A stretch of DNA of 5,532 nucleotides from Hyphomicrobiales bacterium (GTDB taxonomy: Bacteria; Pseudomonadota; Alphaproteobacteria; Rhizobiales; Beijerinckiaceae), in the NCBI GenBank assembly GCA_028290595.1, contig JAQGJO010000204.1, positions 1 to 5,532 of the forward strand, read 5' to 3'. Position 1 is the first letter of the stretch, and the number at the start of each line of letters is the position of its first letter. This document shows, piece by piece, positions 1 to 5,532 of this stretch. Position numbers and translations under genes: made by a program. Under the pieces are notes generated by a model, which saw nothing but the letters and a program-made list of their open reading frames with translations, did no database searches and was not told the DNA's origin.

Positions 1-1709
1 AGACCAGCCGGCTCGACCCATTTCATGTTGAACTGGGTGGCGGGCATATCCGATTTCGGATCGCGATAGAGCGGCACCAGTTCGACAAGCGGCCGATCGC
101 CGATGACGATGCCGGCCGCATGGGTCGAAGCGTTGGAATAAAGCCCTTCGAGCTTCTGCGCGATGTCGACCATGGTGGCGACGCGCTCGTCCTGCTCCAT
201 CGCTTCTTTCAGGCGCGGCTCAGAATCGATGGCCTGTGCGAGCGTAACCGGCGATGCGGGATTCTGTGGCACCAGCTTGGCGAGCTTGTCGACCTGGCCG
301 AGCGGCATTTCCAGCACGCGGCCGACATTGCGCATGACGCCGCGCGCCAGGAAGGACCCGAAGGTGATGATCTGCGCGACGCGATCGACGCCGTAGCGCT
401 GGCGCACATAACGGATCACCTCGTCGCGGCGATACTGGCAGAAGTCGATGTCGAAGTCGGGCATCGAGACGCGTTCGGGATTGAGAAAGCGCTCGAACAG
501 CAGGCCGAAGCGGATCGGATCGAGATCGGTGATGGTCAGCGACCAGGCGACGAGAGAGCCTGCGCCGGAGCCGCGGCCCGGACCGACGGGAATACCCTGC
601 GCCTTGGCCCATTTGATGAAGTCGGCGACGATGAGGAAGTAGCCGGGGAACTTCATGTTGACGATGACGCTGAGCTCGAATTCAAGCCGCTCGCGATAGT
701 CGCTTTCGCCGAAGCCCGGCGCCATGCCATGGGCTGCGAGGCGAAGCGCCAGGCCGTCGCGCGCCTGGCGCTGAAGCTCGGTCACCTCGTCCTGTATCTG
801 GCCGTCGATGGACGTGAAGCGCGGCAGGATGGGACCACGCGTCTTCGGCCGATAGCTGCAGCGCATGGCGATTTCGACGGAATGGGTCAGCGCCTCCGGC
901 AGATCCTTGAACAGGGTCTGCATTTCGGCGCGGGTCTTGAACCGGTGCTCGGCGGTGAGCTGACGGCGATTGGTCTCGCTCGTCGTCGTGCCGTCGGCGA
1001 TGCACAGCAACGCGTCATGGGCCTCATGATCGGAACGGGCGGCGAAATAGGGTTCGTTGGAGGCGACCAGCGGCAGCGAACGCCGGTAGGCCAGATCGAC
1101 GAGTTGCGGCTCGACCCGTTTCTCGGCAGGCGTGCCGTGGCGCTGCAATTCGATATAGAACCGGCCGGGGAATATCCGCTCCAGTTCGCCGGCGCGGATC
1201 GCCGCCTGCTCGGCCCTGTTGTCGCGCAGCAGTACATCGATGGCGCCGGACGGACCGCCGCTCAGCGCGATCAGGCCGTTGGCCTCGCGGGAAAGCTGGT
1301 CGATCAACACATGCGGCAGATCGCCGGCCTGCGGCTCGATCCAGGCCGAGGAGACGAGACGCATCAGATTGGCGTAGCCCTCTTCGTTCTGGGCGATGAG
1401 AACGATGCCGCCCCGCCCGGCGGTCGGATCATCGGCCCTGGCGCCGAGCTTGCGGGCGTCACCGAAATCGAGCGTCAGGTGACAGCCAATGATCGGCTGG
1501 ATGCCTTCCTTCGAGACCTTCTCGGAGAACTCCAGCGCGCCGAAAAGATTGTTCGTATCGGTGATCGCCAGCGCCGGCATATGATCGGCCTTGGCGAAGC
1601 TGATCAGCTTGGGGATCGTCAGCGCGCCTTCGCGAAGGGAAAACGAAGTGTGCAGGTGCAGGTGCACGAACCCTACGTCTTTGACGATCCGATCGATATT
1701 CTGCGGCAT
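1..1709 (-). CDS. dnaE: DNA polymerase III alpha subunit, DnaE1 (N-terminal 569 residues; 3' end beyond the window)
   Basis: This is the catalytic subunit of the replicative polymerase. Read on the minus strand, the frame is open without interruption from 1709 to the left edge. The PHP domain begins at HLHLHTSFSL (residues 16–25) and includes TDTNNLFG (50–57). The polymerase core has GPGRGSGAGS (376–385) and PDFDIDF (417–423), whose D418 and D420 correspond to the first two catalytic aspartates. THAAGIVIGD lies near 528. The sequence stops at KWVEPAG, a few residues before the family's third catalytic aspartate. Family members are about 1,150 residues, so roughly half is present. The sequence belongs to the replicative DnaE1 type, not the SOS mutasome type (DnaE2/ImuC). 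An in-frame TGA lies about 40 nt upstream of the chosen ATG; the only other start seen between them is a TTG at 1718. The Shine-Dalgarno is weak (GGAA about 12 nt upstream). Confidence 0.97.
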   Translation of the reverse strand, partial: MPQNIDRIVKDVGFVHLHLHTSFSLREGALTIPKLISFAKADHMPALAITDTNNLFGALEFSEKVSKEGIQPIIGCHLTLDFGDARKLGARADDPTAGRGGIVLIAQNEEGYANLMRLVSSAWIEPQAGDLPHVLIDQLSREANGLIALSGGPSGAIDVLLRDNRAEQAAIRAGELERIFPGRFYIELQRHGTPAEKRVEPQLVDLAYRRSLPLVASNEPYFAARSDHEAHDALLCIADGTTTSETNRRQLTAEHRFKTRAEMQTLFKDLPEALTHSVEIAMRCSYRPKTRGPILPRFTSIDGQIQDEVTELQRQARDGLALRLAAHGMAPGFGESDYRERLEFELSVIVNMKFPGYFLIVADFIKWAKAQGIPVGPGRGSGAGSLVAWSLTITDLDPIRFGLLFERFLNPERVSMPDFDIDFCQYRRDEVIRYVRQRYGVDRVAQIITFGSFLARGVMRNVGRVLEMPLGQVDKLAKLVPQNPASPVTLAQAIDSEPRLKEAMEQDERVATMVDIAQKLEGLYSNASTHAAGIVIGDRPLVELVPLYRDPKSDMPATQFNMKWVEPAG

Positions 1710-1841: not shown

Positions 1842-1937
1842 TCAAACGATCGGCGCGGCGCGGGTCAGCAGAAGGATCATCCCGACGAAGGCAGCGAGAG
1901 CTGCGAGTTCAATCGTGTCCATAAGAAGAGTACGCAT
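1842..1937 (-). CDS. Small single-span membrane protein (31 aa), predicted LexA/SOS-regulated; possible SidA-like division inhibitor
   Basis: An ATG-to-TGA frame of 31 codons lies in the gap between queC and dnaE. The protein begins MRTLLMDT, continues with an uncharged stretch IELAALAAFVGMILLL (residues 9–24, apart from E10) and ends TRAAPIV. This is the profile of a one-helix inner-membrane peptide, with Arg residues at 2 and 26. The chosen ATG has a GGAG Shine-Dalgarno at 1950–1947 with a 9-nt spacing. An in-frame ATG at 1952 would add five residues (MECLA) but has no comparable ribosome site; an internal ATG at 1922 would leave 26. A LexA-type box sits 39 nt upstream inside a candidate promoter. 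Known family context: Caulobacter SidA is a 29-residue SOS-induced inner-membrane division inhibitor. I recall, without being able to verify it, that sidA also lies near dnaE there. The SidA link is an inference from size, topology, regulation and position, not from sequence alignment. Confidence 0.7.
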   Translation of the reverse strand: MRTLLMDTIELAALAAFVGMILLLTRAAPIV

Positions 1938-1968
1938 GGCCAAACACTCCATGTTTCTTGTTACGATC

Positions 1969-1997
1969 ACTTTAAGTTCATTGTTTGTTCTTGTCCA
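1969..1997 (-). promoter_or_regulatory. Candidate sigma-70-type promoter of the 31-aa membrane protein gene
   Basis: The -35 TGGACA (1997–1992) matches the consensus at 5 of 6 bases. A 17-bp spacer follows, then the -10 TAAAGT (1974–1969) at 4 of 6. Transcription would start near 1962, giving a leader of about 25 nt that carries the GGAG Shine-Dalgarno of the ATG at 1937. That start site would leave too little leader for ribosome binding at the ATG at 1952, which supports the shorter protein. The spacer is filled almost entirely by the LexA-type box. Confidence 0.55.
1976..1990 (-). promoter_or_regulatory. LexA (SOS) box, alphaproteobacterial GAAC-N7-GAAC type
   Basis: On the minus strand the site reads GAACAAACAATGAAC; on the plus strand it is GTTC-N7-GTTC. 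It is an exact match to the direct-repeat LexA operator described for Alphaproteobacteria, with an AT-rich centre. All 15 bp lie between the candidate -35 and -10 elements, so a bound repressor would block RNA polymerase. A rough expectation for this 8-base pattern, both orientations, in a 120-bp upstream region is about 0.004 under equal base use, so chance is unlikely but not excluded. The downstream target is the 31-aa membrane protein gene and possibly dnaE by read-through. Confidence 0.7.
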
Positions 1998-2080: not shown

Positions 2081-2791
2081 CTAGCGCTTGCCAGCAAAAG
2101 CCTGCCAGCCAGCGGCGCGCAAATCGCAGGCGGGACAGGCGCCGCAGCCGCTTCCCCAGGCATGCACACGGGTGCGATCACCGGCGTAGCAGGAATGAGT
2201 TCGCTCGCGGATGAGGTCGACGAGATCGTCGCCGCCGAGTTGGTGCGCCAGTTCCCAGGTCTGGCGCTTGTCGATCCACATCAGCGGGGTTTCGAGGACG
2301 AAGCGGCGTTCGAGGCCGAGGTTGAGGGCAAGCTGCATCGCCTTGATCGTGTCGTCGCGGCAATCCGGATAGCCCGAATAATCGGTCTCGCAGACGCCGG
2401 TGACGATGCGGCGCAGATCGCGGCGATAGGCGACGGCTGCGGCAAACGACAGAAAGATGAGATTGCGGCCGGGCACGAAGGAATTCGGCAGGCCATCGGC
2501 CTGCAGCCGGAATTCAGCCTCGCTGGTCAGCGAGGTTTCGGCAATGTCGGCGAGCGCCGAGATGGCGATGACCCGGTCTTCGCCGAGGCGCGCGCTCCAA
2601 TGGGAAAACTTTGCACGCAACCCGGCAAGGACGTCCTGCCGGCAGTCGAGTTCGATGCGATGGCGCTGGCCGTAGTCGAAGCCGATGGTCTCGACTCTCT
2701 CGTAGCGCTCCAGCGCCCAGGCGAGGCAGGTGGTCGAATCCTGACCGCCCGAGAACAGAACGAGCGCATGTTCGCTCAAATCTGCACTCAT
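2081..2791 (-). CDS. queC: 7-cyano-7-deazaguanine (preQ0) synthase QueC
   Basis: QueC converts 7-carboxy-7-deazaguanine to preQ0 using ATP and ammonia, a cytoplasmic step in queuosine synthesis for tRNA. The PP-loop ATP-binding motif SGGQDS lies at residues 14–19. [15 protein letters not shown], in the middle of the protein, is typical of the family. The C-terminal zinc site is complete: C201 in HSCYAG, then C216, C219 and C222 in [11 protein letters not shown]. The length of 236 residues is normal. The reading frame allows a GTG start at 2794, but the ATG at 2791 sits 7 nt after a GGAG that overlaps the end of lolD, so the ATG is preferred. The gap to the lolD stop is 4 nt, so the gene is probably co-transcribed with the lol genes. 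No other queuosine genes are in the window. Confidence 0.96.
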
Positions 2792-2795
2792 CACG

Positions 2796-3491
2796 TTACT
2801 CCAGTTCCACCAGGAGCCCGTCGCGCAAGGTCACGCGCCGGTCCATGCGGCGGGCGAGTTCGAGATTATGCGTGGCGACCAGCGCCGCCAAGCCGGACGC
2901 GCGGACGATTTCGGTGAGCACGGCGAACACATGATCGGCGGTCTTGGGATCGAGATTGCCGGTCGGCTCGTCGGCCAGCAGCACGCGCGGCGTGTTGGCC
3001 ACGGCGCGCGCAATGGCGACGCGCTGCTGCTCGCCGCCAGACAGCATGCCGGGACGATGCGACAGCCGCTGGCCGAGGCCGAGGAAGGTCAGCAATTCCT
3101 CGGCGCGCCGACGCGCCTCCGAGCGCGCAAGGCCGCGTATCATCTGCGGCAGCATGACGTTCTCCGTCGCCGAGAATTCCGGCAGCAGATGATGGAACTG
3201 ATAGACGAAGCCGATTTCGAGACGCCGCAGCGCCGTACGCTCAGCATCATCCATATGGGCGGTGGGCTGACCGCCAACCAGGATCTCGCCGCCGTCAGGG
3301 CGCTCGAGCAGGCCGGCCAAATGCAGCAGCGTCGATTTGCCAGCGCCCGATGGCGCGATCAGCGCCACCGACTGGCCAGGCGACAAGGTCAGATCGATGC
3401 CGCGCAGGATGTCGAGCGTGGTCTCGCCCTGCGCATAGTGCCGCTGGACGTTCTGGAGATGGAGAGCGGGAGCGGAAGCCACAGCGTTCAT
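2796..3491 (-). CDS. lolD: Lipoprotein-releasing ABC transporter ATP-binding protein LolD
   Basis: LolD is the ATPase of the inner-membrane LolCDE machine, which extracts outer-membrane-directed lipoproteins and hands them to LolA. All ABC elements are present in order: Walker [10 protein letters not shown] (46–54), Q-loop at Q98 within [16 protein letters not shown], signature LSGGEQQ (150–156), Walker [13 protein letters not shown] (170–181) with catalytic E175, and switch histidine H208 in [21 protein letters not shown] is characteristic of LolD among MacB/FtsE-like ATPases. The first residue of Walker A is Ala rather than the usual Gly, a position that varies in this family. At 231 residues the length is typical. 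The start ATG overlaps the permease stop (ATGA) without a clear Shine-Dalgarno, which suggests translational coupling and stoichiometric expression with the permease. Confidence 0.96.
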
Positions 3492-4789
3492 TCATACCGC
3501 AAAGCGTCGACAGGATCGACTTTGGCGGCACTCCACGACGGCAGGATCGTCGCCAGCAGCGACAGGCTGAGCGAGAGAACCACAATAGTCGTGACATCGG
3601 AGGGCACGATCACCGACGGTAGGCGGCTGAGGAAATAATAGGTCGGATCGAAGAGATTGAGATTGAACAGCCAGTTCAACCCTTGGCGGATCGATTCAAG
3701 ATTGCGGGCGACGAAAAGTCCGAGCAGGAAGCCCGCGAACGTGCCGACGATGCCGATGGTCGAACCGGTGATGAGAAAGATGCGCAGGATTGCTCCCTTC
3801 GTCGCGCCCATCGTTCGCAGAATGGCGATCGCCCTGCCCTTGTCCTTCACCAGCATGGTGAGCCCAGAAATGATGTTGAGCGCGGCGACAATGACGATGA
3901 GCGTAAGGATGAAGAACATCACCGTCCGCTCGACTTTCAGCGCTTCAAAGAACGATTTGTTGCGCTGGCGCCAATCGGTCATGATCATCGGACGGCCGAT
4001 GCTGCCCTCAAGCTTCTGGCGCATTTCGTCCATTTTTTCGGGATCGTCGACAAATGCTTCGATCACCGTCGCTTCGTCTTCCTTGTTGAAGAAGGTCTGC
4101 GCCTCGGCCAGCGGCATATAGACAAAAATGCCGTCGAAATCGGAAACGCCGATCTGGAAGATGGCGACCACCGGATAGGCCTTGATGCGCGGCGCGATGC
4201 CGAAGGGAGTCGCCGCGCCCCGTGCCGTCAGAATCGAGACCTTGTCGCCGACGCGCACGCTGAGCGTTTCAGCCATCTTCTGGCCGATGGCAACGCCCTC
4301 ACCGGTGTCGAAGCCGTCGAGCGTTCCCTGCTTCACATTGCCGGCGATACCGGGCAATTGCTTGATGTCCTTCTCGCGGATGCCGCGCACTAGCGCCCCC
4401 GCCTGCTGATAGGGCGAGGAGACGCCCGCCGCGGCTTCGACCATCGGCAGCGCCACCTTCATGCCCGGGACCTTGGAAATGCGGCCGATGACCTCATCGT
4501 AATCGTTGAGCGGTGTATCGGCGCCCTGCAGGAACAGATGGCCGTTGATGCCGATGATCTTGTTCATCAGTTCGATGTGAAAGCCGTTCATCACCGACAT
4601 GACGACGATGAGCGTGGCGACGCCGAGGGTGATGCCGAGAAACGACAGGCCGGCGATGAGCGAGACAAAGCCGTTGCCGCGGCGCGAGCGCAGATAGCGC
4701 AGCGCCAGCATCCATTCAAAAGCCGAGAACGGCCGCGTGCCTGTCGGCTCCGCCTTCACCTGGGGTGCGTCTAGGGCTGTTGCTGTCAT
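3488..4789 (-). CDS. lolC: Lipoprotein-releasing ABC transporter permease, LolC/LolE family
   Basis: This is the membrane partner of LolD. The 433 residues follow the MacB/LolC plan. A cytoplasmic N-terminus contains [14 protein letters not shown] (24–37), and TM1 lies at about 41–66. A periplasmic domain follows (about 70–295). TM2 is at about 299–324, TM3 at about 343–371 and TM4 at about 400–420, and the protein ends [13 protein letters not shown], the family C-terminal signature. [20 protein letters not shown] (325–344), between TM2 and TM3, is the conserved cytoplasmic loop that contacts the ATPase. The segment [10 protein letters not shown] (194–203) lies where LolC carries its LolA-recruiting hook; this is a positional inference. 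The start ATG overlaps the proS stop by 4 nt (ATGA). Only one permease is visible, so it could be LolC, LolE or a dual-role homodimeric form. The symbol is therefore tentative, while the family is secure. Confidence 0.93.
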
Positions 4790-5532
4790 GCGGTCGGCCG
4801 CGCTGTCAGTTTGTTGAAGGCCTCATCAGGCGACAGCGTTTCGCGCGCGCCGGTGCGTCGGTTCTTCATCTCGACCTTGCCTTCGGCGAGGCCTTTGGGA
4901 CCGACGATGAGCTGATGCGGCAGGCCGATGAGATCCATCGTCGCGAACTTCGCGCCGGGCCGTTCGTCGCGATCGTCGTAGAGCACGTCGACGCCCGCCT
5001 TGGTCAGTTTGTCGTAGAGATCGAGACAGGCGGCGTCGACCGCCGCATCGCCGACCTTAAGGTTGGCGATGCCGACTTGAAACGGCGCGACCGATTCGGG
5101 CCAGATCATGCCGGCGTCATCATGATTGGCTTCGATGATCGCCGCGGCAAGGCGCGACGGACCGATGCCGTAGGAACCGCCATGGACGGCGACTTCCTTG
5201 CCGTCCGGCCCGTTCACGACCGCGCGCATGGGCTGCGAATATTTCGTGCCGAAATAGAAGATATGCCCAACCTCGATGCCGCGCGCCGACAGCTTGGCGT
5301 CGTCGGGAAGCGCATCGAAGGCCTTGGCGTCATGCATGTCGGACGTCGCCGCATAGAGCGATCGCCATTTGTCGACGACGCCCTGCACCGATGCACGATC
5401 GTCGAAGTCGATGTCGGCTGGCGGCGGCGTGAACTCGAGATAATCCTTGTGACAGAAGACTTCGCTCTCGCCGGTCGAAGCAAGAATGATGAATTCATGG
5501 CTGAGGTCGCCGCCGATGGGTCCGGTGTCGGC
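4786..5532 (-). CDS. proS: Prolyl-tRNA synthetase, C-terminal 248 residues (5' end beyond the window)
   Basis: This cytoplasmic class II enzyme charges tRNA-Pro. The frame is open from the right edge to the TGA at 4788–4786. The fragment opens in the motif 2 region with [11 protein letters not shown] and contains class II motif 3 as [10 protein letters not shown] (about fragment residues 118–127). It then has the anticodon-binding domain ([41 protein letters not shown]). Only about 100 residues separate SHEF from motif 3, so the large YbaK-like editing insertion of the E. coli type is absent. This is the short form of roughly 430–440 residues common in Alphaproteobacteria. The true start is outside the window; the GTG at 5388 is an internal codon. 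The gene overlaps the next by 4 nt and heads the visible part of the operon. Confidence 0.96.

Follow-up and report, generated by a model that had tools for sequence, protein, structure and literature searches.

The window, by which we mean the whole 5,532-bp stretch of DNA that was analysed, holds a short open reading frame (ORF) in the gap between queC and dnaE, with the following features in and around it.

3..1709, minus strand: 5' part of dnaE (DNA polymerase III alpha), ATG at about 1709; next gene downstream of the 31-aa ORF, assigned by family match.
1842..1937, minus strand: predicted gene for a 31-aa single-span membrane protein, proposed to be sidA-like; ATG 1937..1935, TGA 1844..1842; protein MRTLLMDTIELAALAAFVGMILLLTRAAPIV.
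1947..1950, minus strand: Shine-Dalgarno sequence GGAG, 9 nt from the ATG of the 31-aa ORF, read from the sequence.
1969..1997, minus strand: promoter-like site TGGACA-17-TAAAGT, with the LexA box inside its 17-bp spacer.
1976..1990, minus strand: LexA (SOS) box GAACAAACAATGAAC, a perfect GAAC-N7-GAAC, 38 bp 5' of the ATG.
2081-2794, minus strand: queC, next gene upstream of the 31-aa ORF, assigned by family match.
2796-5532, minus strand: lipoprotein-release genes (lolD and lolC/E-type) together with proS (3' part), the ordinary remainder of the window.

An earlier note on this DNA had claimed that the queC-dnaE gap encodes a compact hydrophobic peptide. The ORF is confirmed, as the ATG, the TGA stop, the length of 31 residues and the GGAG at 9-nt spacing are all borne out by the sequence, and the protein contains a single hydrophobic segment (Kyte-Doolittle 2.57 over 15 residues). 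Longer in-frame starts exist at ATG 1952 (36 aa) and GTG 1970 (42 aa), but the 31-aa start is preferred because the Shine-Dalgarno sequence and the family alignments favour it. Since charged residues lie on both sides of the helix (R2, D7 and E10 before it, R26 after it), the topology is unsure. The gap from the ORF to dnaE is 132 nt long. No Pfam match was obtained for the ORF, and the window as a whole matched no Rfam family and contains no tRNA.

The earlier note mentioned neither the LexA box at 1976-1990 nor the promoter-like site surrounding it. The box is the one perfect copy in the 5,532-bp window, where 0.11 would be expected, and a search of 1690-2100 gave TGGACA-17-TAAAGT as its sole promoter-like site, with 0.2 expected. 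For Caulobacter, a review gives the SOS box as GTTC-N7-GTTC (PMC9578287). In related genomes, with strand and place checked, a perfect box precedes lexA in 6/6 and recA in 4/6. The bare motif GAACN7GAAC is unspecific genome-wide, with 218 sites in the whole genome G001 as compared to 154 for the backward control, and was therefore used only in combination with place and ORF.

The 31-aa ORF is a gene under purifying selection. Its closest relative found, in Roseiarcaceae bacterium H3SJ34-1 (L001; DnaE 94% identical over 288 residues), differs at 15 of 93 coding positions, distributed 4/0/11 over the three codon positions, and 12 of these differences are synonymous and three non-synonymous (pN/pS 0.09). 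Between the same two loci, the 60 bases 5' of the ATG, LexA box included, are identical at 57 positions, and the gap from the ORF to the dnaE match at 110 of 131, with eight gapped columns. Across 20 non-overlapping pairs of family genes (the window-L001 pair included), picked at 70-97% DNA identity and equal length, pN/pS was 0.16 and the codon positions were 61/20/178, whereas a neutral simulation of such pairs gave a mean pN/pS of 0.95 and a minimum of 0.68. The codon-position bias (dN/dS below 1) that the earlier note had named as a check on the frame is thus present both in the closest pair and over the 20 pairs.

The arrangement of box, peptide and dnaE is conserved. We pooled dnaE-upstream DNA from a scan set of 80 named contigs, from a class sample (the best 90 of 282 genomes with a match, out of 289), from 110/120 genomes of a Caulobacterales sample and from a family sample of G001 (the best 30 of 59 with a match, out of 60, one being the genome of L001), giving 299 distinct regions, each 250 bp or longer, with the window included. 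Under a strict rule, which asks for a perfect box at most 60 bp from an ATG ORF of 20-60 aa with a Shine-Dalgarno sequence and a hydrophobic stretch, 97/299 regions carried the arrangement, the window among them. The same rule found it in 0/299 regions on the other strand, in none of five dinucleotide shuffles, and in 0, 1, 0 and 1 of 299 regions with four scrambled boxes. Looser rules that still asked for a perfect box raised the count to 105/299, made up of 16/77 scan, 15/87 class, 58/109 Caulobacterales and 15/25 family regions plus the window, counts that are not unbiased frequencies because the scan, class and family sets come from the top of a similarity ranking. When one box mismatch and looser spacing were permitted, 122/299 regions qualified, compared to three on the other strand and 0-1 in shuffles. 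Across arrangement regions, the peptide ORF lies 6 to 294 nt from the dnaE match.

Some dnaE-upstream regions carry two operators. In L312, L314, L315, L316, L321 and L322, a GAACN7GAAC box upstream of dnaE is accompanied by an oppositely oriented GTTCN7GTTC box starting 18 bp further on, which makes a doubled operator. A tandem form, in which two GAACN7GAAC boxes upstream of dnaE have their starts exactly 18 bp apart, is seen in L249, L252, L253, L278, L280, L281, L282 and L287, and recurs in part of the Caulobacterales sample.

An independent test of the closeness to dnaE is the blind whole-genome search, in which a profile of the window clade was run against 199 whole genomes of the order regardless of place (threshold E<=0.01); copies away from dnaE were looked for by this search only. 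It returned 23 matches. In 19 of these, one being in the seed genome G001, dnaE follows on the same strand, with its match 51-702 bp away. A perfect box accompanies 18 of the 19, in 17 cases within 500 bp of dnaE and in L319 farther off; in L313 and L319 the dnaE match begins 702 and 600 bp after the profile match. The frames of the four matches that have no dnaE in their locus are 186 to 687 aa long, and these matches resemble noise.

The spread of the arrangement is patchy. On a FastTree phylogeny of 167 DnaE N-termini, of which 163 were scored and four rows had too little upstream DNA, it is present (one box mismatch permitted) in 73/122 rows of one large part and in 2/41 scored rows outside, with at least 20 changes of state; absences on this tree are upper bounds, because a peptide ORF that runs into the dnaE match, as in L131 and L126, is left unlabelled. 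Named carriers include Roseiarcaceae, Beijerinckiaceae, Lichenihabitantaceae, Methylopilaceae, Devosiaceae and Parvularculaceae, and the arrangement was seen before dnaE in 0/19 Phyllobacteriaceae rows and 0/6 named Rhodospirillales rows of the tree. The Phyllobacteriaceae rows without it include L035, L045, L049, L050 and further Mesorhizobium loci. A database search with the window type gave 913 proteins at E<=10 among 7986 scored; among the 120 matches listed of these 913, none is named SidA, and the named ones are hypothetical proteins, for example from Bradyrhizobium and Phreatobacter.

SidA is the SOS-induced division inhibitor of Caulobacter. It acts through FtsW (PMC4211646), and the earlier note had placed its gene, too, beside dnaE. 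That placement was correct. The curated model NF033228 (div_inhib_SidA), which also matched Caulobacter vibrioides as the named control, exceeded its cut-off of 35 bits in 14/120 genomes of the Caulobacterales sample, and in all 14 the locus immediately precedes the dnaE match and shares its strand. Seven of nine sub-threshold matches in this sample also lie just before dnaE on the same strand. Two 29-aa Caulobacterales peptides taken from the place upstream of dnaE were tested against NF033228 and matched it, and database searches with such peptides led to proteins named 'cell division inhibitor SidA' in Caulobacter and Phenylobacterium. The SidA loci L242, L260, L268 and L272 have boxes with one mismatch only.

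Against this background, the likeness that the earlier note saw between the window protein and SidA stands in size and single-span form, with 31 residues and one hydrophobic helix, and fails at the curated model: NF033228 matched neither the window protein nor the 20 members of its clade alignment, and its cut-off was exceeded in 0/199 genomes of the window's order. The two proteins share a length of about 29-31 aa, one hydrophobic helix, a place immediately ahead of dnaE and on its strand, and a LexA-type box in front, which is perfect here and carries one mismatch in some SidA loci. Moreover, an acidic residue of the window protein aligns with SidA's Glu before the helix, which is in register. 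Unlike SidA, the window protein lacks the RE[ST]..FVW signature, and its clade keeps a second acidic residue, E10, which is invariant in the 20-sequence clade alignment and variable in a wider set.

At the level of sequence, the profile similarity of the window protein to SidA is weak but repeatable. With motif-picked profile groups, 14/15 pairs were similar and the comparison of SidA with the 'Hyphom' group was not significant (5/60 shuffles as good); as such groups are possibly biased, the SidA profile test was repeated with sets of 22 and 12 sequences selected by genome. Here, the window clade and SidA aligned in register over 28 columns with a score of 21.2 (P 5e-5, probability 67%), as compared to 9.3 for a mirrored profile, and 0/200 column shuffles scored as high (maximum 19.2). 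Iteration of an HMM seeded solely with the window sequence converged on 41 members, with SidA among the next-ranked matches (best E 0.11; 11/15 rows at E<=10, from 8184 ORFs searched), and SidA was never included at E<=0.01 in the iteration. Since its database consists of regions fetched mostly through dnaE, the closeness to dnaE of the matches of this HMM is no independent test. In the reverse direction, a SidA HMM gave the window frame an E of 1.6 and ranked an unrelated frame above it (0.32). HMMER E-values between the window and SidA clades were all above 0.01. Compared to shuffled sequences, 13/15 SidA rows (11/13 distinct) beat at least 297/300 shuffles and at least 296/300 pattern-keeping shuffles, and the other two were little above their own shuffles (29/300 and 104/300). 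Bridging sequences such as MFKIFVEEAAALASITLFVGMIAIWAQVIPQL were ranked at E 0.2 by the SidA profile. Judged by these comparisons, common descent of the window clade and SidA is probable, short of proof.

If the link were instead one of analogy, an unrelated small membrane gene would have acquired a similar LexA promoter before dnaE and then a similar role. The sequence link taken alone, with a best E of 0.11 forward and 1.6 in reverse and no NF033228 match, leaves some room for such convergence, but the in-register profile match over 28 columns, the links between several clades and the bridging sequences speak against it, and we regard analogy as unlikely. The claim of the earlier note that the gene is a positional homologue of sidA in another order gains support, because place, size, single-span shape, LexA box, purifying selection and the weak, repeatable profile similarity all agree with SidA. 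The window gene is probably a SidA orthologue that current annotation has overlooked.

Taken as a whole, we consider it likely that the window gene is sidA-like and encodes an SOS-induced division inhibitor of the SidA type, and a SidA-like mechanism would be expected from its place, control and form. In an undamaged cell, LexA sitting on the box between -35 and -10 would block transcription. Upon DNA damage, RecA would become active and LexA would be cleaved, whereupon the 31-aa peptide would be made and would enter the inner membrane as a single helix. Once there, it might, like SidA, keep the FtsW/FtsI complex for septal wall synthesis in an inactive state and so postpone division until the damage is repaired. 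On the minus strand, the search between the peptide gene and dnaE turned up no terminator-like site, and some of the SOS transcription may therefore continue into dnaE, the replicative polymerase gene. For the window gene, we infer each of these steps, that is damage induction, membrane insertion, FtsW binding, division arrest and read-through into dnaE.

Several other small membrane proteins invite comparison. DidA of Caulobacter is an SOS-independent, small single-span inhibitor of late division that has 71 aa, is controlled by DriD rather than LexA and binds FtsN (PMC4211646). The window protein resembles it in its small single-span form and differs in its 31 aa and its LexA box, and on these two grounds we rejected an identity with DidA. 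YneA of Bacillus, SosA of Staphylococcus and ChiZ of Mycobacterium are damage-induced membrane division inhibitors, and low-confidence models place them, as well as SidA, on TM7 of FtsW, with SidA on the opposite side (PMC13396833); the window protein, as a proposed inhibitor of this kind, is likened to them by description.

A different target is conceivable, in that an SOS-induced single-span peptide could act on the membrane itself, causing depolarisation or persistence, rather than on the division machinery. TisB of Escherichia coli is an SOS-controlled single-span peptide, and to our knowledge neither its gene nor that of DinQ lies beside dnaE. DinQ, also from Escherichia coli, is described as an SOS-regulated toxic single transmembrane peptide with antisense small RNAs at its locus (PMC3567139). 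The size, single helix and LexA control of the window gene would fit such a function equally. However, the place before dnaE is common to SidA, the similarity to SidA is in register, and, unlike at DinQ, no known RNA family was matched in the window, though a new antisense RNA would escape this search. A membrane-acting peptide is accordingly improbable to us.

Still less probable is a translated leader that mainly regulates dnaE, through translation coupling or LexA control of dnaE, with the peptide itself doing little. The fixed order before dnaE and the apparent lack of a terminator-like site between the two would suit a leader, but the amino-acid sequence is under strong selection, which a mere leader would not need, and the variation of the gap to the dnaE match from 6 to 294 nt speaks against coupling; the distances of 702 and 600 bp in L313 and L319 also count against a leader. 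Finally, although 31-codon frames are common in GC-rich DNA, a chance open frame is rejected on the codon-position bias, the pN/pS of 0.09 and the recurrence with box and dnaE in 97/299 regions as compared to none on the other strand and in shuffles.

Returning to the SidA-type division inhibitor, we tentatively propose, as a possibility somewhat short of even, that Caulobacterales, Hyphomicrobiales and their neighbours inherited the SidA checkpoint from a common ancestor and kept it as a LexA-controlled unit with dnaE, one SOS promoter driving both a division brake and extra DnaE. If this were true, the same signal would stop division and refill the replisome. Outside gammaproteobacteria, SulA is reportedly not conserved widely (PMC4211646). 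Titles and abstract openings of the open-licence papers searched, a survey outside which the first description of SidA (Modell 2011) and the study of the Caulobacter SOS regulon (da Rocha 2008) lie, yielded no report of SidA outside Caulobacterales. Our analysis suggests that current annotation underrates how far a SidA-type damage checkpoint extends across alphaproteobacteria. Testable candidates are hypothetical proteins of the window type in Bradyrhizobium and Phreatobacter, as well as loci with the box-peptide-dnaE order in, among others, Methylopila, Lichenibacterium and Parvularculaceae, and a simple rule for annotators would be to inspect the DNA between a LexA box and dnaE.

Among the peptides encoded at this place in the Caulobacterales sample, a 28-aa one, MAQLQDAAAFAAILAFTLMAWGWGAVIG, occurs in identical form upstream of dnaE in six genomes (L239, L243, L250, L255, L263 and L289), and a comparison of three pairs of these loci showed DNA differences solely at third positions.
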